From contig NZ_FPBF01000002.1 in assembly GCF_900116615.1 (NCBI RefSeq), positions 682,001 to 746,000 on the forward strand: a stretch of DNA of 64,000 nt, written 5' to 3'. The number at the start of each line of letters is the position of its first letter. Positions within the stretch are counted from its first letter, which is position 1. The position numbers and the translations under genes were made by a program. Below are positions 52,050 to 64,000 of this stretch, in pieces. This DNA comes from Algoriphagus locisalis. GTDB lineage: Bacteria > Bacteroidota > Bacteroidia > Cytophagales > Cyclobacteriaceae. The notes beneath the pieces were generated by a model, which saw nothing but the letters and a program-made list of their open reading frames with translations, was not told where the DNA came from and searched no databases.

Positions 52050-52940
52050 CTAAACAATCTGCTCTTCCATCTGGACTAGAATGCGTTTGATTTCTTTTGA
52101 ATATGCAAGCGAACAGATGTTAGACGGAATGGAAAGTTGTTGTTCTACACTTTGCAAACCTGACACAAAAACCTTTGCCTCCGAAAACTCCCGTCCTAGC
52201 ATAGTTAAATAATCCTGAATATTTTCCGGAGAAGGAGAGGTAGTGATCACGGTAAAAAGGAAATCGGGACGCTGCATATTATATACAGAGATCAAATCCG
52301 CATCTGGCGTATTTTGACCTAAGTAGATGACCTTGTGCCCGTGTTTCTTGATCAAATAGCTACTAAATAGAAGCGATATTTCGTGTAATTCTCCTTCCGG
52401 CAGGAATAACATAAACGTTTTACCCGTGTTTTTCCCCACTTCTCCGTCTATAGCCACAATAAGTTTTTGGCGGATCAGATTGGAAATGAAATGCTCTTGG
52501 GCTGGTGTGATAGCTCCGGTAAGCCAGAGCACTCCAATTTTGGTAAGGAAGGGATAAACCACCTTTATTATGGTGTCTTCAAATCCCAATTTGATGATAC
52601 TGGTGGAAAGTACTTTTTCGAACCTATCCTCGTCCATTTCTATCATACAGATCGTAAGCGCCTGGATCTGATCGTTGTAGTCGAGGGATTGATCTGTGAG
52701 CCGTATGATCTCTTCGCTGATATCAGTGTGACTCATTGAAGCGATTTTGCTGATTTTAATGCCATGGCTATTTAGCATGGCTACATTCAGAATCCTCTTG
52801 AGATCTTCGTCATCGTAGTAGCGAATATTAGTATCAGTCCTTTTAGGATTGACTAAGTTGTACCGCTGCTCCCAGATTCTTAGGGTATGCGCTTTTATAC
52901 CTGAGAGTTGCTCCAGATCTTTTATTGAGTAGTTGCTCAC
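52050..52940 (-). CDS. CarH/LitR-like B12-binding MerR-family regulator
   Basis: A 296-residue repressor candidate. The MerR-type HTH at about 3-70 includes AHTLRIWEQRYNLVNPKRT and NIRYYDDEDL. The middle domain carries W139-x9-E149-H150, the motif that contacts adenosylcobalamin in CarH. The C-terminal B12 domain has E184-L-H186-E-I-S189, matching ExHxxG with Ser for Gly; H186 would be the lower axial ligand. These point to an AdoCbl-dependent photoreceptor that releases DNA in light. It starts with GTG, 6 bases from the crtZ stop, in the cruF-crtZ-merR unit. Light sensing is inferred, not shown. Confidence 0.88.
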   Translation of the reverse strand: MSNYSIKDLEQLSGIKAHTLRIWEQRYNLVNPKRTDTNIRYYDDEDLKRILNVAMLNSHGIKISKIASMSHTDISEEIIRLTDQSLDYNDQIQALTICMIEMDEDRFEKVLSTSIIKLGFEDTIIKVVYPFLTKIGVLWLTGAITPAQEHFISNLIRQKLIVAIDGEVGKNTGKTFMLFLPEGELHEISLLFSSYLIKKHGHKVIYLGQNTPDADLISVYNMQRPDFLFTVITTSPSPENIQDYLTMLGREFSEAKVFVSGLQSVEQQLSIPSNICSLAYSKEIKRILVQMEEQIV

Positions 52941-52945
52941 CTTTT

Positions 52946-53383
52946 TTAGTTCTTAAAATATTTCCTCGGCACTAGAAACAGGCCAAACGAGACTGCTCCT
53001 TCTCTTTTTCTGCTTTGATGATGAGCCTGATGGGCTGAAAAAATTCCTTTCAAAAACCCCTTTCTAGGCCTATCCAGCCATTTCATTCTACGATGGATCA
53101 GTACGTCATGGAGAAAGAAATACAACATGCCATACATACTGATTCCTATTCCGATCCAAAACCTGTAATCCAGATCTCCTACACCAAGAAATATCAGCAG
53201 AATGGCGATACTCCCAAATAAAAGCGAAAAGAGATCATTCAATTCAAAAAATGAATCTGAATGCTCGTGATGAGTCTTATGGATCGACCATAAAGGACCA
53301 TGCATTAGGTATTTGTGAATTGCCCAACCCGACAATTCCATCAAGACAAATCCCAATATACTATACCCTATAGCTTCAATCAT
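52946..53383 (-). CDS. crtZ: Beta-carotene 3-hydroxylase CrtZ
   Basis: Membrane di-iron hydroxylase acting on beta-rings. From the ATG at 53383 (145 residues) the His clusters are H23-x4-H28, H35-x2-HH (38-39), H92-x4-H97 and H118-x2-HH (121-122). Short like other CrtZ enzymes; about four TM segments. Upstream TTG at 53386 is an alternative. Second gene of the cruF-crtZ-merR unit. Confidence 0.9.
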   Translation of the reverse strand: MIEAIGYSILGFVLMELSGWAIHKYLMHGPLWSIHKTHHEHSDSFFELNDLFSLLFGSIAILLIFLGVGDLDYRFWIGIGISMYGMLYFFLHDVLIHRRMKWLDRPRKGFLKGIFSAHQAHHQSRKREGAVSFGLFLVPRKYFKN

Positions 53384-53456
53384 CAAGTTTACAACTTAAG
53401 CTGTTTCTTTTTGTTTTCGTTCGTAATGAATTAACTCCGGTTTTTAATACAGGAAA

Positions 53457-54125
53457 TCAAACCTGGAGCGTAAAATTAAGAATTGTAAAAAAGAGAATCA
53501 TCGCAACCAGCAAGAAAGCGGCCAGTGGATTCCCTTTATCAAAGTTACCTTTTCTATAGATCAAATGGATCAAAAACGCAACTATAAACCAAGTCAGATA
53601 GTTATCAGCTGGAATAACCCCTGACTTCCAATACCAAAAGTCCAAGGCCACCGCTACAGGTTCCATGATGTAATCAATCAACGTCATGGCTGTGGCTCCA
53701 AGTAAGGCTGCATAATAATCATTATCGGTAACCTTGTAGAAAACGGCTCCGGTGAGATATACCAAAATAAACCAATTGATTCCAATGACGATAGGTACCT
53801 GCCAAAGCATGGGTCCCAGCGTAGGACCATACACATAATCTCCGAAAATATACCCGGTATGAATCCCGATCAGCTCGGCACCAAAGCCTATCCAAAAAGC
53901 AACGGCTGCAAAAATCGGAAATGCCTCTGACCAACCTCTATGAAATCCCAAAACCAATAAGAGCGTAAGGATAAGCTGAGCCGGTGTGAGCATCAGGAAA
54001 TAGTCTCGGTATTCCGGCAAACTTAATCCTATGGCTCCAACGCCATATAGCGCAACCACCACAATTTTTGCTATAATCAATCGCTTATTCTGTGCTTCGG
54101 GGGGAGCTTTCGCTATTTTATGCAT
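53457..54125 (-). CDS. cruF: Carotenoid 1,2-hydratase CruF
   Basis: A 222-residue membrane protein with about six TM segments (for example VVALYGVGAIGLSLP, LAAFLLVAMILFFTIL). The patterns ELIGIHTGYIFGDYVYGPTLGPMLWQVPIVIGINWF and DPMxxALDFWYW-like YIMEPVAVALDFWYW are characteristic of CruF, which hydrates the psi end of acyclic or monocyclic carotenoids. With crtD elsewhere in the window this gives a 1'-hydroxy-3',4'-didehydro acyclic end. First gene of its unit. Confidence 0.85.
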   Translation of the reverse strand: MHKIAKAPPEAQNKRLIIAKIVVVALYGVGAIGLSLPEYRDYFLMLTPAQLILTLLLVLGFHRGWSEAFPIFAAVAFWIGFGAELIGIHTGYIFGDYVYGPTLGPMLWQVPIVIGINWFILVYLTGAVFYKVTDNDYYAALLGATAMTLIDYIMEPVAVALDFWYWKSGVIPADNYLTWFIVAFLIHLIYRKGNFDKGNPLAAFLLVAMILFFTILNFTLQV

Positions 54126-54563: not shown

Positions 54564-54824
54564 AGTTTCGCCCCATTCGGGGCTGCCAGACAGGTTCTAC
54601 CGAAATGCCCCCGGCTTTGCCGAGGGTTATGAAAAGTTACAATCCTTCGGGTTTTTCCTATCAAGATGACCTCTAATCAGCTATGAATTACGCAAGGATA
54701 GTATTCAATGAAGTGCTTCATTTTTAAGCCAGCTCCGAAGGAGCCTAACCATTCATGACCCTGTACGAAGTGCAGGGAACCAATGACGATGAAATGGATG
54801 AGCCCTGAAAGGGCGGAACTTTTA
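54564..54824. repeat. Left copy of a hairpin-rich REP-like repeat
   Basis: A non-coding array of about six small hairpins. In order: GCCCC...GGGGC, CCCGGC...GCCGAGG, an (A)ATCC-TTC-GGG(TT) unit, GCTCC-GAA-GGAGC, CCCTG...CAGGG and GCCCT-GAA-AGGGC. It matches the copy at 55318-55576 in the same order and orientation, and the transposase gene lies between them. Confidence 0.75.
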
Positions 54825-54865
54825 CCAAAAAAACTTAACTTTCTTAAAACAAACTTTTTTAAAAA

Positions 54866-55312
54866 ATGACTTCTTACCGACAAATGTATTACCATGTCAT
54901 ATTTCATACCAAGAGGAACAAGCCTTCCTTAGATTCAGATTGCAAAGACGTTTACAATTATTTATGGGGAATAGTTAAAAACAAAAAATCAAAACTGTAT
55001 CAAATCAATGGTATTGAAAACCACATTCATTTGCTAGTGGATATCCACCCCACAAATGCTGTTGCAGATTTCATGCAAGATTTAAAAGCCTATTCAAGTG
55101 CTTGGATTAAAAAATCAAAAGCACATCCACATTTTACAGGTTGGGCAGACGGATATGGGTGCTTTACCTGTTCCATTCATGAAAAGGATAGATTAATAAA
55201 TTACATCAAGGGACAAAAGGAACATCACAAAACAGAAACCTTTGAGGATGAGTATCGAAGAATTTTGATTGAAAATGGAATTGAGATTGATGAAAGGTAT
55301 TTTTTGAAATAG
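54866..55312 (+). CDS. IS200-like Y1 (REP-associated) transposase
   Basis: A full-length 148-residue HUH/Y1 single-strand transposase. The HUH motif is HIHLL near residues 53-57, and the catalytic Tyr is in YIKGQKEHH near 112. Start and stop are intact, so it may be functional. It sits between two direct copies of a hairpin-rich repeat of about 260 bp (42 bp and 5 bp away). This arrangement is that of RAYT genes and their REP elements; it is not a classic IS with terminal hairpins only. Confidence 0.85.
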   Translation: MTSYRQMYYHVIFHTKRNKPSLDSDCKDVYNYLWGIVKNKKSKLYQINGIENHIHLLVDIHPTNAVADFMQDLKAYSSAWIKKSKAHPHFTGWADGYGCFTCSIHEKDRLINYIKGQKEHHKTETFEDEYRRILIENGIEIDERYFLK

Positions 55313-55317
55313 AAAGA

Positions 55318-55576
55318 AGTTTCGCCCCATTGGGGGCTGCCATCCAGGTTTTGTCTTCATAACCCCCGGCTTTGCCGAGGTTTATGAATAGTCGCAACCC
55401 TTCGGGTTTTTCTTCCAGAGCTGTTATTAATCAGGTATGAATTATCGAAGAATAGTATTTAGGGAAGTGCTTTTTTATAACCAGCTCCGAAGGAGCCTGA
55501 CCATTCATGACCCTGTACGCAGTGCAGGGTACAGGAAACTAGTAAACAAAGTAGCCCCGAAAGGGCGGAACTTTTA
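55318..55576. repeat. Right copy of the hairpin-rich REP-like repeat
   Basis: Same order of hairpins as the left copy, beginning AGTTTCGCCCC and ending GGGCGGAACTTTTA. Substitutions occur mostly outside stems or are compensated, for example CCCATTCGGGG becomes CCCATTGGGGG. It begins 5 bases after the transposase stop. Confidence 0.75.
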
Positions 55577-55763: not shown

Positions 55764-56909
55764 ATGAAGAGACTACTTATTTTTTCCTTTCTGACTATTT
55801 CATTTTTTTCCTGCGGAGAAAAAGGCATCTCCAAAAAATCCGAATCCGATAACATTCTAGAAAACCTGACTTACTCAGTGGATACTGTCGTGGTAGATCC
55901 TGGAGATGAGCTCATCAATCTCGCTATGGGTCTTTACTTTTTTGATGTTTCCAACGACTCCAAAAGACTCTATCAACTAACACCAAATGATCAATCGGTA
56001 GCTGTGATCGACCTGGACCGACTGGAACTGATCAAAAAAATCAAATTCGAAAAAGAAGGACCAAACGGAATAGGCTCATTCCCAGCTGATATAAAAGTGT
56101 TGCCAGGCGAAAACTTCATGTTTTCAACCTTTCAATCAGCGGGGGTCTTCGATTCTCAGACTTCCAAAATAGATGACATTACGCTAAAAGCTGAGCAGTA
56201 TCCAGAACTTGGGATAGAGGAAAGTCAAGACATGAATTTCCAGATCAACATCAGTGAAAATGGGGATTACCTCTATTCCCTTCCGGGAGGAATTATGGAA
56301 AGTAACAGAGACTTGGTGGTCATAGACAAATCCAACAATACCGGTAAAAAGTTTGACATTCCTGCGTTGGACAACACGGGGAAGTTCAGCATTATGTTTT
56401 TCAAGGACGGCATGGCAGAGATTTCTATGGAAGATTATTTCATGGATGAATACCAAGGTGATTTGTATCTCTCCTCTTCGGTTACCAGTGATTTATATCG
56501 CTATAACTTCCAGCAAGACTCGCTGCAACTATTTTCCTTTCCCATCACAGTAAGTCCCAAAGAGAAAACCGAACTTCCAAAAAGAGAAGTCTCCTCCAAA
56601 AAAGAACAGCAGGAAGAATCCCAAAAAGTACGCTCCCAAATATCCTTCAAACACCTCATGTGGGATGAATCCAGAAAGCCTTTTTTTAGGATTGCGAGCA
56701 TTACACTACCCAGTGAAACCCCAGGTTCTCCAGCAAAAATCTCGGTGTTTCTATATGCCTTTGACACTAACATGAAGCTGGTTGGAGAGACCTTGATAGA
56801 TGATCTAAAAAGCATTCCTGAATCAGCCTTCTTCAAAGACGGCAAGCTCTACTCCTATGTCAATGTCGAAGACGAGCTCGGCTTCGCAGTATTTACTTTT
56901 GATTTTTAA
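55764..56909 (+). CDS. DUF4221-like lipoprotein, array gene 1
   Basis: A 381-residue lipoprotein. Signal with lipobox ending SFFSC (C17). An ENLTYSVDTVVVDPGDE block near 31-47, an EKEGPNGIG block near 94-102, a diverged middle, then LMWDESRKPFFRI and a C-terminal FFKDGKLYSY...DELGFAVFTFDF block. The repeated beta-strand/turn pattern suggests a beta-propeller. Family name DUF4221 is from memory of this N/C-terminal pattern; function unknown. It is most like array gene 6 in its C-terminal third. First of the tandem array; gene 2 follows after 6 bases. Confidence 0.8.
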   Translation: MKRLLIFSFLTISFFSCGEKGISKKSESDNILENLTYSVDTVVVDPGDELINLAMGLYFFDVSNDSKRLYQLTPNDQSVAVIDLDRLELIKKIKFEKEGPNGIGSFPADIKVLPGENFMFSTFQSAGVFDSQTSKIDDITLKAEQYPELGIEESQDMNFQINISENGDYLYSLPGGIMESNRDLVVIDKSNNTGKKFDIPALDNTGKFSIMFFKDGMAEISMEDYFMDEYQGDLYLSSSVTSDLYRYNFQQDSLQLFSFPITVSPKEKTELPKREVSSKKEQQEESQKVRSQISFKHLMWDESRKPFFRIASITLPSETPGSPAKISVFLYAFDTNMKLVGETLIDDLKSIPESAFFKDGKLYSYVNVEDELGFAVFTFDF

Positions 56910-56915
56910 GCAACT

Positions 56916-58067
56916 ATGAAAAAACTACTAACAATTTCCCTTCTCGCCTTACTTGCCGCCTGTGGCGGTAAAGAATCCGATTCCACAGAACAAAAAAACA
57001 TTCTCGAAAACCTGACCTACACTGTGGATACAGTAGTAGTGGATGCTGGGGAAGACTTCATCAACCTAGGTTTTGGCCTGGGTTCATTTGACCTGACGTC
57101 TGATAAAAGCCAGTTACTGTTCTTTCAAAGTAAGCCACTAATGCTCGTTACAGCGGATTTGGATGAGCTCAAAATCCTGAGCAAAGCAGAATTTGAAACG
57201 GAAGGTCCCAACAGCGTGGGAGCTTATACCCGTGGTCTTAAGGTAGGACCATCGGGGGAGATTTTCATCAAAGGCTATAACGGACAAGGTATTTTCACTC
57301 CTGACGGGGCGATGACCGAGAACCTGAGGTTTTTTCCTGAAGGCTTAGATCCTGACTATGCCAATGACTTTATCAAGGTGTATGGCGGAGGTATTTATGA
57401 TTTCGGGAGCAATAAGTTTTATACTCAACCTTACGGTGAAATTGAAAAACTCAATGAACTGTGGGTTATAGACCCGGTTAGCAAATCCTTCAAATCCTAC
57501 CCTATTCCAAAAATGAAATCGGTAAGAGACAGTGAGATCACCTTGACCCAAAAATCAGATCAGGGAACTACAATGAATTACTTTGGTCCATCAGCCTACA
57601 TGGATATGGAAAACGGTCAGTTGCTGATTTCGGCAGGAACGATGAGTGGGGTTTATACATTGGATCTTGAGGCTGACAGCGTAAAGTTCATTGACATAAC
57701 CCACCAAACTGTTCCAAATGAATGGAATATCACCGTCATGAACGAATCTAGCAATGAAGCTGGCTTTATGGAAGACAGGCGGAAAATTGCCGAGCAGCTG
57801 AATTTCATGGATTTCAAATGGGATGAGACTAGGCAGATGTATCTGCGCTTTGGGAAAAAGACTTTTTTTGGCGAAAACAGAGCAGATCCCCCTACCTATG
57901 AATTATATCTTTTTGCCTATGACAAGGACTTTAATGTATTGGGAGAGACCAAATTGGAAAGCATCAAAACCATACCTATCTCTTACTTCTTCAAAGACGG
58001 CAAGCTCTACTCCTATGTCAATGTCGATGACGAGCTCGGCTTCGTAGTTTTCACTTTTGATTTTTAA
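56916..58067 (+). CDS. DUF4221-like lipoprotein, array gene 2
   Basis: 383 residues. Lipobox LLAACGGKE, with the Cys near residue 16. ENLTYTVDTVVVDAGED, ETEGPNSVGAY, FKWDETRQMYLRFG and the conserved C-terminus with VDDELGFVVFTFDF. Closest to array gene 3 in the middle (IPKMK, TMSGVYTLDLE, HQTVPNEWN). Outer-membrane or periplasmic lipoprotein by signal; role unknown. Confidence 0.8.
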   Translation: MKKLLTISLLALLAACGGKESDSTEQKNILENLTYTVDTVVVDAGEDFINLGFGLGSFDLTSDKSQLLFFQSKPLMLVTADLDELKILSKAEFETEGPNSVGAYTRGLKVGPSGEIFIKGYNGQGIFTPDGAMTENLRFFPEGLDPDYANDFIKVYGGGIYDFGSNKFYTQPYGEIEKLNELWVIDPVSKSFKSYPIPKMKSVRDSEITLTQKSDQGTTMNYFGPSAYMDMENGQLLISAGTMSGVYTLDLEADSVKFIDITHQTVPNEWNITVMNESSNEAGFMEDRRKIAEQLNFMDFKWDETRQMYLRFGKKTFFGENRADPPTYELYLFAYDKDFNVLGETKLESIKTIPISYFFKDGKLYSYVNVDDELGFVVFTFDF

Positions 58068-58071
58068 ACCC

Positions 58072-59223
58072 ATGAAAAGACTTTTAACTGTTTCATTTCT
58101 TGCATTGCTTTCTGCCTGCGCTGGTAAAGAGCCTGAATCAACTGAACAGAAAAACATCCTCGAAAATCTTACTTATTCGGTCGATACACTGGTGGTAGAT
58201 GCAGGAGAGGATTTTCTGAACTTATCCCGTGGATTAGGTGAGTTTGGTCTCAGCGATGATAAAAAAAGGCTGTTCTTTTTTGAGAGTGAACCACCTAAGC
58301 TAGTTGAAGTGGATTTGGAAAATTTAAAAGTCCTGAAAAAGACTGAATTTGAAGTAGAAGGACCAGACGGTATTGGATCATATTTATCCGGTTTGGAAAT
58401 AGGCCCTACTGGAAATCTGTATATAAACAGCTATGCGACCGTAGGGATTTTCGGTCAGAACGGAAAAAAACTACAGGATTTGAAATTTTTCCCTTCTGGA
58501 ATAGATTCAGCTTTGGCAGAAAATAATCGGACGCTCTTTTCAAGAGCCGTGTATGATTTTGACAGCAGAAAAATTTATAGCCAACCTACGTTTCAAGATG
58601 CTCAGGATCATATCCTATTAATTCTCGACCCCGAAACCCAAACCGCCCAATCGCTGCCTATACCCAAAATGAAAATAGTGGATGATTACAGCGGGACTTT
58701 TACAATTGAATCTGGAGGCTCAAGCATGATATCATTTTATGCTGTTGCGAGTTTCTTCACTTTTTTCCCAGGGGAATTGATCCTATCCACCGGTGCTATG
58801 AGTAGTATTTATAGATATAATATTCAAACAGAGGAGCTAGCTTTTATTGATATACAGCACCAATCTGTCCCTAACGTAATGAAAATAGAAATCCCTAAAA
58901 ATACTTCAGATCCAAAGGAGGCTAGTGATATTCAGAATAAGATTTTTGAACATATCAATTTTATGGAAATGTTATGGGACGAATCTCGTCAACTGTATTT
59001 TCGATTTGGCCTGAAAACTTTTAGAGGTGAAACGAAAGATGATCCTACAACTTTTGAATACTATCTTTTTGCGTATGATCGAGATTTCAAGGTACTGGGA
59101 GAGACCAAATTGAACACTATAGAAGGTTTATTGTCGAAAACTTTCTTTAAAGACGGCAAGCTCTACTCCTACGTCAATATCGATGACGAGCTAGGCTTTG
59201 CAGTATTCACTTTTGATTTTTAA
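58072..59223 (+). CDS. DUF4221-like lipoprotein, array gene 3
   Basis: From the ATG at 58072 the protein is 383 residues; an in-frame extension to 58057 overlaps gene 2 and is not preferred. Lipobox LLSACAGKE. ENLTYSVDTLVVDAGED, EVEGPDGIGSY, MLWDESRQLYFRFG and the conserved C-terminus. Shares with gene 2 the middle motifs IPKMK, AMSSIYRYNIQ and HQSVPN. Four bases after gene 2. Confidence 0.8.
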   Translation: MKRLLTVSFLALLSACAGKEPESTEQKNILENLTYSVDTLVVDAGEDFLNLSRGLGEFGLSDDKKRLFFFESEPPKLVEVDLENLKVLKKTEFEVEGPDGIGSYLSGLEIGPTGNLYINSYATVGIFGQNGKKLQDLKFFPSGIDSALAENNRTLFSRAVYDFDSRKIYSQPTFQDAQDHILLILDPETQTAQSLPIPKMKIVDDYSGTFTIESGGSSMISFYAVASFFTFFPGELILSTGAMSSIYRYNIQTEELAFIDIQHQSVPNVMKIEIPKNTSDPKEASDIQNKIFEHINFMEMLWDESRQLYFRFGLKTFRGETKDDPTTFEYYLFAYDRDFKVLGETKLNTIEGLLSKTFFKDGKLYSYVNIDDELGFAVFTFDF

Positions 59224-59229
59224 GGAACT

Positions 59230-60351
59230 ATGAAAAGACTACTCATTCTTATTCTAATAACGATAGTTTGTAAATCCTGCACTAAACAATCCAATGAATC
59301 TGAGCAGGACGAATTTGAATTTACTTACTCAGTTGATACTGTGATGATAGATTCAGGCGATGAGTTTATTTATTTAAACTCGGGGTTAAGAATGGCAGCC
59401 CTATCCCCAGATAAAAACTTACTTTACAATTATAATCATAGTTCATCAGAAATTGAAGTTATAGACTTGGGTCAATTGAAATTGACTAATCGAATAAAAA
59501 TGGAAAAGGAAGGGCCTAACGGCACAGGTAATCCCAGTAGCATAACAATAAGTCTAGATGGGAGATTCTTTTTTGCTACCAATACTGAAATCCGAGAATT
59601 CAATGCTCAGTTGGATTCCATGAAGCAGTATAAATTCAACGGAAAGAAGTTTGAAGTTTTGAATTCTGATGAGACTATTAATTCCCCTTTTGTGCTTTCT
59701 CCAGACGGGAAGTTTGCACTCGTTAATTATGGACCTATCGAATATTTTGAAGTAAGAAATGGGATTTCTGCGCTTAATTTGGCTGATTTTAAACTTAAGA
59801 AGTTCCCATTAGAATTATTTGAAAGATCTGATCCCTATCATATCTCCTTTTCCGAAAACGGACAAATAAGACTGAAAACGATCGAATCAATGCATATCGA
59901 TCCAATAGATCATCGAGTGCTAATTTCCTCTCATAATTTCAACGAAGCTTATCTATTAGACCTGATCTCAGATTCCTTAACAAGAAAGATATTTGATTCG
60001 AAGCTGACTCAAAACATCAAACAGATACCTGCCAGATCCACTGCAAATTCACGGGAAGAATTTCATAAATTATGGAATGGAACTAAAGACTACGTGGAGT
60101 TTGGTAGATTCTACTATGACGATTTCAATGAAAAGTTCTGGAGGTTCTCACAGGATCTCGATCGCAAGATAGGAGACTCAGCAGTCTATAAGCAGATAAC
60201 GACCATTTTTGATAAAAACCTGAATCAACTCCACGAGGAAGTAATCCCTATTCCTTATTACGGATTCAAGTTCTTCAAAAACGGCAAGCTCTACTCCTAT
60301 ATAAATGTCGAAGACGAGCTCGGCTTCGCAGTATTCACTTTTGATTTTTAA
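59230..60351 (+). CDS. DUF4221-like lipoprotein, array gene 4
   Basis: 373 residues. Signal ends TIVCKSCTKQ, with the lipidated Cys near 17. The N-terminal block is FEFTYSVDTVMIDSGDE, without the ENL of the others; then MEKEGPNGTGN and GRFYYDDFNEKFWRFSQDLDRKIGDS. It forms a sub-pair with gene 5. Its C-terminal block is nevertheless almost identical in DNA to that of gene 1 (4 differences in 81 bases). Confidence 0.8.
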   Translation: MKRLLILILITIVCKSCTKQSNESEQDEFEFTYSVDTVMIDSGDEFIYLNSGLRMAALSPDKNLLYNYNHSSSEIEVIDLGQLKLTNRIKMEKEGPNGTGNPSSITISLDGRFFFATNTEIREFNAQLDSMKQYKFNGKKFEVLNSDETINSPFVLSPDGKFALVNYGPIEYFEVRNGISALNLADFKLKKFPLELFERSDPYHISFSENGQIRLKTIESMHIDPIDHRVLISSHNFNEAYLLDLISDSLTRKIFDSKLTQNIKQIPARSTANSREEFHKLWNGTKDYVEFGRFYYDDFNEKFWRFSQDLDRKIGDSAVYKQITTIFDKNLNQLHEEVIPIPYYGFKFFKNGKLYSYINVEDELGFAVFTFDF

Positions 60352-60359
60352 ACCCAACT

Positions 60360-61454
60360 ATGAAAAAACTGACTCCTCTTATTTTACTCGTCCTTTGTCT
60401 GGCTTGTGGTAATCCAACAGATAAATCCAATCAGGAAGAAGTTAATTTTACTTTTCGGGTGGATACGGTTATGGTGGACGCAGGTGAGGAAATCCTCTTT
60501 CTCCAATCGGCCTTAAGCCATTCAAGCCTTTCTGTGGATCAAAAGAAACTCTTCAATTTTTCTCCCAAAAGTGAGCTGGAAGTTATTGATTTGGAAAGCT
60601 TGAAGTTGCTTGACAAGATTGCCACAGATAAAGAAGGACCACTTGGTACAGGCTGGCCTTACGCCATCCAAGTCGATCAAACTGGAAATATGGTTTTTTA
60701 TGGGGTTGAGGAAGTAAGGGTTTTTAGTTCTGACTTGAGCTCCATGAAACGTTATCAACTTACTACCGAGGCTTTGTCAGGGCTAGAACCTGAGATGTTA
60801 TCCATGTTTAACCCAAAGATCACTTATGGTAACCTACTCTATGGGATATATGAAACGCTCGAACAAGTACCTCAAGGGATTGCAATTGTTTCAATGGAAG
60901 ATGGTAGCGTAAAAAAGATTCCACTAGATCTGGCTGGTAGAATAGCCCCATATACCTATTTATTAGGATCAGATAGAAAAGTATTTGAAATGATCAACTT
61001 GGAGCTAGTCGATAAGTCGCTTATCCTGTCCACGGCATACGCCAATGAAGCGTTGATACTGGATTTGGAAAGTGATTCGGTAACAGTAAAAACCTTTCAC
61101 TCTGAATTGACATCTGACAAAAAGAAGATTCCAATCAGAACATCGGCTGAGACAATCAATGAAATAGATGACCTCATAAAGGAGTCGAAGAAAGATGTAA
61201 CATTTGGCCAATTCTATTTCGATAAAATGCACCGGAGGCTTGTACGATTTTCCCGGGAACTTGACCGGGAAATCGGTGACTCCTTGATTTTTAGAAATGT
61301 ACTTACGGTCTTTGACAAAGAGCTGAATCAGCTGGCTGAGACCGAAGTGTCCGTAGATCCCTTTTCCAAGAAATTCTTCAAAGACGGAAAGCTCTACTCC
61401 TATATTAATGTCGAAGACGAACTCGGCTTCGCAGTTTTCACATTTGATTTTTAA
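60360..61454 (+). CDS. DUF4221-like lipoprotein, array gene 5
   Basis: 364 residues, the shortest copy. Lipobox LCLACGN. VNFTFRVDTVMVDAGEE, TDKEGPLGTGW, VTFGQFYFDKMHRRLVRFSRELDREIGDS, then the conserved C-terminus. Pairs with gene 4 by shared middle and tail motifs. Eight bases after gene 4. Confidence 0.8.
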   Translation: MKKLTPLILLVLCLACGNPTDKSNQEEVNFTFRVDTVMVDAGEEILFLQSALSHSSLSVDQKKLFNFSPKSELEVIDLESLKLLDKIATDKEGPLGTGWPYAIQVDQTGNMVFYGVEEVRVFSSDLSSMKRYQLTTEALSGLEPEMLSMFNPKITYGNLLYGIYETLEQVPQGIAIVSMEDGSVKKIPLDLAGRIAPYTYLLGSDRKVFEMINLELVDKSLILSTAYANEALILDLESDSVTVKTFHSELTSDKKKIPIRTSAETINEIDDLIKESKKDVTFGQFYFDKMHRRLVRFSRELDREIGDSLIFRNVLTVFDKELNQLAETEVSVDPFSKKFFKDGKLYSYINVEDELGFAVFTFDF

Positions 61455-61460
61455 AAAACT

Positions 61461-62600
61461 ATGAAAAAACTACTTACGATTTCATTACTTGTACTTCTTT
61501 CAGCCTGCGGGGGAAAGGAATCTGAAACCACCTCTAGATCCGAAAATATCCTGGAAAACCTGACCTACTCGGTAGATACGGTGGTGGTGGATCCAGGGGA
61601 GGAAATCATTAATCTCAAATATGGGCTATCCAGTTCTTCAATGAGTCCTGATCAACAAAAGCTCTATAAGTTTGATGGGAATACAATGCAATTGCAAGAA
61701 ATCAATTTGGATAAATTGGCACTTACAGCCAGCTTTCCATTTGAAAAAGAAGGGCCAAATGGGGTAGGCCCCTTTGGAAATACACTCACCTCTCTCAGAG
61801 ATGAGCTATTTCTATTTAGTGGTCATAATAGAATTGGCAAATTTTCGAAGACCGGTGAGCTATCGCAGGACTTTGATTACACGATTGATGAGTTACTTGA
61901 AGGTGAAAAAGCAAAGGGGCATATGCTTTCTCAATTCGCTTATTTGGAAGGAAATCAACTGGGATTTTTTTTGGAAACCAATTTTTTTGATCCTGTATTC
62001 AATCTCGTATTAGTCAACTTTGAAGAAGAGAATTCAAAAGTGATCGACCTTCCAGAGATGGATATAACACATGATTATAGAGTCGTCACGGATGATAATG
62101 GTTATAAAGTGAGTATTACACAGGAAGTAAATGTACAAACTATAAATTCCAAAGCTTATGTCTCCAATACGGTAAGCAGTGGCATATACCGTTATGATCC
62201 TGAACTGGATACCCTGCAATACATCACTTTCCCTCTTACCCTTACAGCTACCCAAAAGACCAGAAAAATCAAAAATGAGGTGTCGTCAGCAGAAGAACGA
62301 AAAGAGCAAACGGCATTGATAAATTCTGAAGTACGTTTCAACGAACTTCTTTGGGATGATAAATCCAATCAATTCTTCCGCTTCAGCTCTATCCTAATCC
62401 CTAGCAATTCTGAAGAACCAAGCAAAAAAAGTGAAGTATTTCTTTCTGCTTTTGACTCACAACTCAACCTGATAGGTGAGAAAAAACTGGAAGAGCTCTT
62501 TACTGTACCCGAAAATGCCTTCTTCAAAGACGGCAAGCTCTACTCCTACGTCAATGTAGGAGACGAACTCGGCTTCGCAGTATTCACTTTTAACTTCTGA
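61461..62600 (+). CDS. DUF4221-like lipoprotein, array gene 6
   Basis: 379 residues. Lipobox LLSACGGKE. ENLTYSVDTVVVDPGEE, EKEGPNGVGPF, NEVSSAEERKEQ and ELLWDDKSNQFFRFSSI, followed by the conserved C-terminus ending FTFNF. Resembles gene 1 in its C-terminal third (EVSS...EE/EQ segment, SILIPS versus SITLPS). It uses TGA, unlike TAA or TAG in the other copies. Confidence 0.8.
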   Translation: MKKLLTISLLVLLSACGGKESETTSRSENILENLTYSVDTVVVDPGEEIINLKYGLSSSSMSPDQQKLYKFDGNTMQLQEINLDKLALTASFPFEKEGPNGVGPFGNTLTSLRDELFLFSGHNRIGKFSKTGELSQDFDYTIDELLEGEKAKGHMLSQFAYLEGNQLGFFLETNFFDPVFNLVLVNFEEENSKVIDLPEMDITHDYRVVTDDNGYKVSITQEVNVQTINSKAYVSNTVSSGIYRYDPELDTLQYITFPLTLTATQKTRKIKNEVSSAEERKEQTALINSEVRFNELLWDDKSNQFFRFSSILIPSNSEEPSKKSEVFLSAFDSQLNLIGEKKLEELFTVPENAFFKDGKLYSYVNVGDELGFAVFTFNF

Positions 62601-62604
62601 ACCC

Positions 62605-63732
62605 ATGAAAAAACTGCTTACGATTTCCACTTTAGCTATCCTGGCCGCATGTGGTGAAAAGCAATCCGAGTCAACTGAACAGATAAACATTCTCGAAAAT
62701 CTGACTTTTTCCGTGGATACAGTCGTGATCGATGTGGGGGAAGAGATTTTTATGCCGGGGGCTTATTCGGCCTTTGCGATCAGCGAAGAGGAAGATCGTG
62801 TTTTTACATTTTACGAGCCTGAAGTGGAAGTTCACGAGATTGATTTGAACAATAACAAACTTGTGGCGCGTCATAAATTCGAAAAAGATGGCCCTAATAT
62901 GATTCCTAATTATGCTAATTATTTACAGGTTTTAAATGATGACGAGCTATTTCTGGGAAACTTCTATACGGGAGTAATCTTTACGCTTGATGGGAAAAAA
63001 GTAAAGTCTCTACCATTTCAGGCAGAAAAATATTCAGGTTTCGATCCGGATTTTTCTATGTCTATGGGCAACTCAATTACTCTCAGCTCAGATAAAAAAA
63101 CGGCACTTTTTTACCCAAATGAAGGGATAGGCGCTCCTGATGGGCTAGCGATACTCAACGCTGATGAAATGAGTGGTGAATTAGTAGCCCTACCGGCTTT
63201 AGAGATGTCGGAAAACTTCCGGATCAAGATGAGTGATGGTTCCATCACTTTTGGTCAATTACAGAAAATCAGCTGGGTCAATGAGCAGTTTATCCTTTAC
63301 AGCGGAACGACCTCTGATATTTACTTATATGATCAAACAGATTCATTACGCTTGGTCACCTTTCCACATCAGCTTGTACCCAAAATGAAAACCGGAGAAT
63401 TCCCAAGTACTGCGGACACTTATGAAAGACTCAGGGAAGTAGGGAGGGAAATCGATAAACAAATTACTTTTTCCAATTTCTATTGGGATAAAACCCGGCA
63501 AATGTATTTCAGACTGGCACAAATGAATTGGGAAGTAAACGAAGAAGCGCAATCTTTCAGCGCAGACATTTACTTGTTTTCATACGACAAGGACTTCAAT
63601 TTGACTGGTGAAGCGGAAGTTGAAGGGTTAGATGCACTTCCATTCCAAAGCTTTATGAAAAACGGCAAACTTTACTCGCGCTGGGTGGTCGGCGAAAACC
63701 CAGCCTTTATCGTTTACAGCTTTGATTTTTAG
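62605..63732 (+). CDS. DUF4221-like lipoprotein, array gene 7
   Basis: 375 residues. Lipobox ILAACGEKQ. ENLTFSVDTVVIDVGEE, EKDGPNMIPN and SNFYWDKTRQMYFRLAQ. The C-terminus departs from all others: FMKNGKLYSRWVVGENPAFIVYSFDF instead of the ...YVNVEDELGFAVFTFDF form, although the GKLYS core is kept. Four bases after gene 6. Confidence 0.8.
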   Translation: MKKLLTISTLAILAACGEKQSESTEQINILENLTFSVDTVVIDVGEEIFMPGAYSAFAISEEEDRVFTFYEPEVEVHEIDLNNNKLVARHKFEKDGPNMIPNYANYLQVLNDDELFLGNFYTGVIFTLDGKKVKSLPFQAEKYSGFDPDFSMSMGNSITLSSDKKTALFYPNEGIGAPDGLAILNADEMSGELVALPALEMSENFRIKMSDGSITFGQLQKISWVNEQFILYSGTTSDIYLYDQTDSLRLVTFPHQLVPKMKTGEFPSTADTYERLREVGREIDKQITFSNFYWDKTRQMYFRLAQMNWEVNEEAQSFSADIYLFSYDKDFNLTGEAEVEGLDALPFQSFMKNGKLYSRWVVGENPAFIVYSFDF

Positions 63733-63736
63733 AGGC

Positions 63737-64000
63737 ATGAAAAAACTACTTCCATTTTTAGCCCTTACATTTTTTGCCGCTTGTACGGAAAAGCCTTCTT
63801 CTGGAAGCAGTTTGAGTGAAACCGAGTCCACTAATATCCTTGAGAACCTGACCTTTTCCATCGATACATTGATGGTGGATACTGGGGATGATTTTATAAA
63901 TTTTGCCCCTATATTCAGTACTTCATCTTCTCCTGACGGCCATTACTTTTACTTAATTGATAAGGACCTCAAGCTTCAGAAAATAGATTTGGACGCGATG
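63737..64000 (+). CDS. DUF4221-like lipoprotein, array gene 8 (cut by window edge)
   Basis: Only the first 88 codons are present. Signal MKKLLPFLALTFFAACTEK with a lipobox FAAC. Then ENLTFSIDTLMVDTGDD, matching the other copies. Starts 4 bases after gene 7. The rest of the gene, and perhaps more copies, lie to the right of the window. Confidence 0.75.
   Translation, partial: MKKLLPFLALTFFAACTEKPSSGSSLSETESTNILENLTFSIDTLMVDTGDDFINFAPIFSTSSSPDGHYFYLIDKDLKLQKIDLDAM

Follow-up and report, generated by a model that had tools for sequence, protein, structure and literature searches.

Nearly identical 3' ends of diverged DUF4221 genes in an Algoriphagus array: probable homogenisation by recombination beneath a genus-wide DNA spelling

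The antigenic-variation cassettes of Borrelia (vls) and Neisseria (pil) are tandem surface-protein genes that undergo segmental conversion through shared homology. Concerted evolution has also been described for prokaryotic paralogs, reportedly for genes of important pathways and complexes (Wang and Chen 2018, PMC6053082). Here we consider a tandem array of 23 genes of the DUF4221 family (PF13970) in Algoriphagus locisalis, which takes up 26.5 kb (C13:737,764-764,301) of contig C13 of the 5.42-Mb genome, on one strand throughout. Seven complete copies and the beginning of an eighth lie in the 64,000-nucleotide stretch that was analysed, called the window below (bases 682,001-746,000 of C13). 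Algoriphagus are environmental bacteria, placed in the same phylum as Porphyromonas gingivalis. Many genes of the array end in a shared tail, that is, 78 coding bases plus the stop codon at the 3' end of the gene.

According to our analysis this is a strong and real case of homogenised gene ends, of which recombination is the best explanation and to which a second layer of nucleotide conservation is added. We propose, with a probability of roughly two in three, that recombination between tails homogenises the gene ends and drives gene-sized turnover of the array. The tails would recombine with one another because copies with diverged bodies are near-identical nowhere else over so great a length; conversion without crossover would be one outcome, and crossovers at the tails would add, drop or replace whole genes, so to speak along common seams, as which the tails may act in the gain, loss and exchange of genes. 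The agent would presumably be homologous recombination of the RecA type, and the exchange would be of some consequence for the cell.

A preliminary description of the locus, confined to copies 1-6, had drawn attention to the last 81 bases of these genes. Its coordinates are exact and mark the ends of six consecutive open reading frames (ORFs) including the stop codon, and both of its counts were reproduced (4 differences between copies 1 and 2, 4 between copies 1 and 4); over all pairs the differences range from 4 to 12, copy 6 being the farthest with 9-12. The sequence GGCAAGCTCTACTCC is exact in copies 1, 2, 3, 4 and 6, and GGA replaces GGC in copy 5. What was described for six copies holds for more of the 23: the tail, here called type A, is carried by ten genes (copies 1-6, 8, 9, 10 and 14), a sister form, type B, ends copies 13, 15, 16 and 17 (75% same codon), and the shared tail is absent from copies 7, 11, 12 and 18-23. 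A DNA search of the 5.4-Mb genome with the tail (E ≤ 0.1) returned 14 matches, all within the array.

At residues that are identical in a pair and encoded by more than one codon, the tails of copies 1-6 use the same codon in 82% of cases (n=351), where 44% is expected from the codon usage of the array; in four other segments of the same genes the rate is 40-49% (n=180-549), with 35-40% expected. None of 100,000 permutations of alignment columns (26 tail columns, 181 others) reached the tail excess. Synonymous divergence along the pairwise alignments, which the preliminary description proposed to compute, is thus far from uniform. Over the first 20 tail columns the same-codon rate of type A is 0.67 against type B, 0.43 against type C (copies 18-22) and 0.30 against copies 7, 11 and 12, so that type C and these three genes share codons with type A no more than bodies do; both sets serve as internal controls, being of the same array, and genes 7, 11 and 12 stand besides in the same half of it as the A tails and at similar spacing.

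For comparison across genomes, 49 stretches of 48 genomes yielded 397 DUF4221 ORFs, and 361 of these ORFs entered the codon alignment; 36 were excluded as shorter than 1,000 nucleotides, cut by the end of a contig or stretch, or containing N. The stretches were cut around the main array (32 kb for our own genome, up to about 25 kb for the others), which places some tails on other contigs outside the sample, and the arrays of G045, G049, G054 and G072 are undercounted because they reach the stretch end. Type-A tails were chosen by pattern, 174 at the alignment step and 175 in 46 genomes thereafter. The tail peptide is present in 48/72 genomes of the genus searched, our own included, and in 45/50 of those of good quality. 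As many as 23 genes were seen in no other fetched stretch, the four undercounted arrays being among these.

In this sample the tails follow the genome more than the ortholog. The same-codon rate of tails is 0.700 within genomes vs 0.620 between them, a level reached in 0/2,000 shuffles of genome labels (175 tails, 46 genomes); for bodies the two rates are 0.423 and 0.421. Where bodies of two genomes are at least 0.5 identical, only 264/819 comparisons place the partner's tail nearer than the average paralog of the own genome. In 12 of the 14 genomes with at least five tails, own tails are closer to each other than to those of the median other genome (G018 is equal, in G085 they are further apart). 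Concerted evolution, understood as paralogs being more alike within a genome, is therefore seen in the tail only, and more weakly when the nearest genome is taken for comparison.

Close orthologs provide a more direct view. Among the 29 cross-genome pairs with body identity of at least 0.85, 18 have at least two tails in both genomes and a body nucleotide difference below 0.10, and in these multi-tail pairs synonymous differences amount to 95/428 (22.2%) in tails vs 630/5,671 (11.1%) in bodies (p=3e-10). Six pairs that involve a one-tail genome go in the opposite direction, 21/137 (15.3%) in tails vs 557/1,854 (30.0%) in bodies (p=2e-4). In a count by window, 13/18 multi-tail and 0/6 one-tail pairs have a tail above the average of the other windows. 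In close orthologs the tail is in this sense at odds with the remainder of the gene, a further expectation of concerted evolution by gene conversion.

Position within the array matters as well. Adjacent tails differ by 10.4 nucleotides (111 pairs) vs 12.3 for non-adjacent ones (292 pairs), a contrast matched in 15/5,000 shuffles, and the bodies of adjacent and non-adjacent genes are 0.300 and 0.295 identical. In the neighbouring genes 04 and 05 of G017 the tails agree in 78/78 bases, with a sharp upstream edge: the 78 bases before them are 53% and the bodies 28% identical. One could suppose that the copies are simply products of recent tandem duplication of which the tail is the slowest part; they are indeed tandem and homologous, and g06 and g10 are 82% identical across 1,134 bases. 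We find this scarcely credible as a general account, given that the edge of tail similarity is abrupt and that the bodies of neighbours resemble each other no more than those of distant genes; the non-uniform synonymous divergence refutes it for most pairs, and bodies are on average synonymously saturated, so that most copies must be old.

Two further observations on codon agreement may be added. Over their first 30 codons g16 and g17 are 96% identical, most later 15-codon windows of their bodies being 31-73% identical, and this 5' end is possibly a separate conversion. Four more DUF4221 genes (C5:563567-566814, three in tandem, and C13:255367-256260) have a common C-terminus, GNHPDHPDSKEDQLVIHTFDFS, with bodies 54-77% identical. 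On the few codons available (20-35 per pair), the tail codon excess of such groups outside the array is smaller than in the array: in this C5/C13 group it is modest and uneven, 0.64-0.89 vs 0.56-0.73, and in the group termed the C5 trio the last 35 codons give 0.62-0.72 vs 0.45-0.56 in the body.

Arrays of related species were also compared by BLAST in blocks of at least 85% identity and at least 700 bases. Arrays of close species have some genes in common and others not (for instance the 15 genes of G019 and the 12 of G021), and 74/78 internal block edges lie in the tail, the spacer or the first 170 nucleotides of a gene: 35 in the last 95 nucleotides, 3 in the spacer, 15 in the first 30 nucleotides, 21 at nucleotides 31-170 and 4 deeper, three of these four sitting 141-159 nucleotides before the gene end. 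Another 42 edges fall at array or contig ends. The preliminary description had suggested that the middles of genes could thereby be shuffled or exchanged; this can be maintained for whole genes, as array turnover, with 4/78 edges being found deeper in the gene.

Remnants were looked for through tail matches (E ≤ 0.05) and 23 short-tail ORFs, those of 8 stretches being inspected closely. In G010, G072, G194 (two loci) and G307, tails with little or no body precede another DUF4221 gene by 6-31 nucleotides, and in G085 the remnant abuts its downstream DUF4221 gene; the remnants of G072 and G085 consist of parts of the start and the tail, those of G194 (both loci) and G307 of the tail. It follows that bodies can be lost while the ends persist. 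At locus L076 of G010 (reverse strand, near 1802) the ORF just ahead of a lone DUF4221 gene is a mini-ORF with a signal-peptide-like start fused directly to the tail, and it looks like an internal deletion that retained both ends.

Turnover in units of whole genes, bordered by a short conserved stretch, would also be expected of site-specific recombination cassettes, similar to an integron or a shufflon, with the tail as the site, and by eye a near-palindrome, CGAAGACGAGCTCGGCTTCG, can be recognised in the tail of copy 1. We give this explanation almost no weight: the palindrome is, again by eye, not preserved in other genera or in those genomes with one or two tails that have the DFKF ending, no stable fold of the tail was found (recombinase genes near the array were not systematically searched), and tail divergence is graded, as in homology-driven exchange.

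Several points weigh against recombination between tails as we propose it. No exchange event was observed directly, and the support comes from comparison of sequences. The excess of tail divergence holds in only 13/18 of the close multi-tail pairs, and in the five remaining multi-tail pairs, which have a body nucleotide difference of at least 0.10 and stand outside the test, the tail exceeds the body in 2. The 18 pairs stem from 9 genome pairs and the six reuse few genes, so the p-values treat as independent codons that are dependent through shared genomes and genes; besides, the multi-tail and one-tail sets are unmatched in body divergence. Own tails are closer than those of the nearest other genome in only 1/14 genomes, G017, which means that the tails of the whole genus, taken together, are almost as uniform as those of one genome. 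That block edges fall at gene ends is in part to be expected, because BLAST runs through conserved tails and whole genes are natural units, and breakage is not significantly more frequent at type-A junctions than at the other ones (28 broken and 5 kept vs 20 and 9, with 7 mixed excluded; p=0.22). Finally, codons are conserved across species even where a genome has a single tail, which within-genome conversion does not produce.

This last point leads to the second layer of the phenomenon, the DNA spelling of the tail. Its first 12 codons are near fixed genus-wide, several of them as rare codons (GGC 83% vs 19% in usage, CTC 73% vs 12%, TCC 78% vs 22%, GAC 87% vs 30%); AT-ending codons are equally fixed (AAA 97%, TAT 88% at a usage of 0.65, AAT 91%), and so, further along the tail, is TTT (99%, usage 0.68). 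Seven one-tail genomes keep 61/75 consensus codons, G022 being an exception. Between species, codon identity of the tail stays at 0.62-0.66 from body identity of 0.6-0.7 down to below 0.25, a range over which codon identity of the body falls from 0.50 to 0.41. Outside the genus we had 14 stretches from 12 of the 51 matching genomes: in another genus of the family, genes of G318 and G273 with near-saturated bodies keep the spelling (20/24 codons against G067_02), and others there (G258, G301 and G307b) have a similar tail peptide whose spelling is not shared (3-10 of 17-19 codons against their three best Algoriphagus matches).

On population-genetic grounds, conversion confined to single genomes does not in itself retard the divergence of species from one another. 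Either nucleotide constraint or exchange between species is needed in addition, and gene conversion does not account for all of the similarity. The proposal of the preliminary description has in this way to be divided: conversion or recombination at shared ends finds good support in the non-uniform divergence, the genome-following tails, the ortholog excess, the neighbour effect and the edges at gene ends, but it is not sufficient for codons near fixed in the first tail half of other species and of one-tail genomes. The same codons in orthologues of distant species, which that description counted against conversion, were found by half, that is, within the genus and in the first half of the tail.

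It is possible, if on the unlikely side, that nucleotide selection alone is at work and that the tail functions as an element of the DNA or RNA (a protein-binding site, an RNA-processing or small-RNA target, a signal coupling translation to the next gene) with little recombination. Fixation of both GC- and AT-ending codons down to one-tail genomes, the between-species floor of codon identity, the rarity of genomes whose own tails beat the nearest other genome, and the persistence of remnant tails ahead of DUF4221 genes all speak in its favour. But constraint cannot make the tails of close orthologs more diverged than their bodies, nor neighbouring tails more alike, and genes 7, 11 and 12 of the same array half do without the shared codons. 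RNA structure exceeds codon-usage shuffles only slightly (z -0.76), an excess that is gone once the shuffles retain the tail's own codons (z -0.03; 46 tails; RNAalifold 4 pairs), and we rejected it as a signal. Coupling of translation to the next gene is not supported either, since tails with no array gene within 60 nucleotides behind them keep the codons (62/83 and 20/21, vs 1,405/1,688 for internal tails in multi-tail genomes).

Other candidates were tried and rejected. A reading frame overlapping into the next gene is not supported by spacers of 4, 6, 8 and 9 nucleotides, which give different frames. Third positions of the tail are GC-rich (0.61 vs 0.37 expected for the own genome); GC-biased conversion was discarded because this excess shows no significant rise with copy number (46 genomes, rho 0.20, p=0.17) and AT-ending codons are equally fixed. 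A genome-wide recombination or uptake motif was not found in AAAGACGGCAAG, of whose 8 genomic occurrences (1 for the reversed control) 4 lie in the array; at up to 2 mismatches GGCAAGCTCTACTCC gives 25 matches, 16 of them forward and 9 reverse (7 for the reversed control), and its 5 exact matches are all in the array. Codon choice might also follow the protein or its local context, such as Asp-Gly turns or translation speed at the C-terminus, and the tail peptide is strongly conserved. We consider this very improbable: of the 716 Asp-Gly pairs that the bodies of these genes contain, only 6.3% are spelled GAC GGC, far from the fixation of the two codons in the tail, and the other-genus genomes with a similar peptide spell it differently.

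The fixed first half and clade-specific second half of the tail fit constraint better, and the genes that lack the spelling, together with a pool nearly uniform across the genus, fit exchange better. We think that the genus-wide spelling of the first half reflects a pool of exchange between species, selection for a good recombination partner, or both. One may speculate further, on a thought more probably wrong than right, that the tail is a recombination adaptor whose DNA spelling, and not the peptide alone, is kept because matching copies keep exchanging, that arrays trade whole surface-protein genes within and between species, and that selection or a self-sustaining copying bias acts on exchangeability itself.

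The encoded proteins belong to PF13970, which matches the 7/7 complete window copies with 163-192 bits (cut-off 23.4) and gives 34 matches in the genome, all above the cut-off. The AlphaFold2 model of copy 1 (pLDDT 78, pTM 0.80) has 3s9j as its top PDB fold match (E 3.8e-14, TM 0.62), followed by other propeller proteins, and 3s9j is also the best match among solved sequences (4e-7). The array proteins are predicted to be beta-propellers like 3s9j, with the tail forming residues 356-381 of the model and containing its last three strands. Cys17 of copy 1 is invariant across the 7 window copies and preceded by a hydrophobic start; it is a candidate for the lipobox cysteine of a bacterial lipoprotein. 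NCBIfam returned no name for the 3/7 window copies tried, named relatives matched by array proteins are all from Algoriphagus (29/29 loci), no publication in the searched library was found under the name DUF4221, and nothing on this array stood among the literature matches listed, Algoriphagus together with gene conversion yielding a single taxonomy paper.

Table 1. Genes of the array and their shared tails, in window positions.
Feature	Position	Strand	Basis or remark
Copy 1 (g01), DUF4221 lipoprotein-like gene	55764..56909	+	PF13970 6.5e-51
Copy 1 shared tail, type A	56829..56909	+	codon comparison and DNA search
Copy 2, DUF4221 gene	56916..58067	+	PF13970 1.1e-50
Copy 2 shared tail, type A	57987..58067	+	codon comparison and DNA search
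Copy 3, DUF4221 gene	58072..59223	+	PF13970 1.3e-54
Copy 3 shared tail, type A	59143..59223	+	codon comparison and DNA search
Copy 4, DUF4221 gene	59230..60351	+	PF13970 1.9e-56
Copy 4 shared tail, type A	60271..60351	+	codon comparison and DNA search
Copy 5, DUF4221 gene	60360..61454	+	PF13970 1.7e-47
Copy 5 shared tail, type A	61374..61454	+	codon comparison and DNA search
Copy 6, DUF4221 gene	61461..62600	+	PF13970 3.5e-52
Copy 6 shared tail, type A	62520..62600	+	codon comparison and DNA search
Copy 7, DUF4221 gene without shared tail, internal control	62605..63732	+	PF13970 3e-55
Copy 8, 5' part	63737..64000	+	array goes on to copy 23, C13:745737-764301

Through gene 21 the copies are separated by spacers of 4-9 nucleotides or overlap by 8-14, and larger gaps stand ahead of genes 22 and 23. 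Tails of the KP type (such as KPTYE), found in genes 13-21, often overlap the next start; TATGAATAA contains ATG AAT, so the next gene after such an overlap starts with MN, and among overlapping KP-type junctions of all fetched arrays the most frequent classes are MN (41) and another M start (27). Just upstream of copy 1 lies an IS200-like transposase gene (54866-55312 including the stop, 148 amino acids, PF01797), flanked by imperfect repeats at 54608-54824 and 55363-55576 that are 81-90% alike; the whole (54608-55576) resembles a REP-associated transposase together with its repeats. Further upstream, on the reverse strand (52050-54125), a MerR-type regulator with a B12-binding domain and a carotenoid biosynthesis protein are encoded, possibly a light-controlled pigment unit with no link to the tails.

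Such a locus offers a natural test of the idea that genes retain short common ends so that their diverged forms can be exchanged, and a good system in which to ask whether exchangeability itself is maintained: array size ranges from 1 to at least 23 copies across the genus, which permits a direct comparison of copy number, tail type and turnover. There are also practical consequences, as trees of such genes built on the tail mislead, and synonymous conservation inside a gene may stem from recombination rather than from an encoded signal.

Compared with described systems, the array shares the DUF4221 family and the fold with 3s9j of Bacteroides vulgatus, which is one solved protein, where here there are 23 tandem copies. 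The surface proteins of Porphyromonas gingivalis, judging by the title of the report, diversify by domain rearrangement and allelic exchange (PMC5266723), which recalls our case, although the proteins differ from those of the DUF4221 array. Like the paralogs reportedly described by Wang and Chen (2018, PMC6053082), the tails are more alike within a genome than orthologs are between species; unlike those genes, only the last 78 coding bases behave so here, the bodies diverge freely and the spelling is fixed genus-wide. The arrangement has in common with Borrelia vls and Neisseria pil that tandem surface-protein genes would undergo segmental conversion through shared homology. It departs from them in that all copies (23/23) are complete ORFs with their own start and stop, and no single expression site and no truncated donors of a silent-cassette type are seen, as judged from the ORFs alone. 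Most characteristically, and again unlike vls and pil, it is the ends that are homogenised here and the middles that are kept different.

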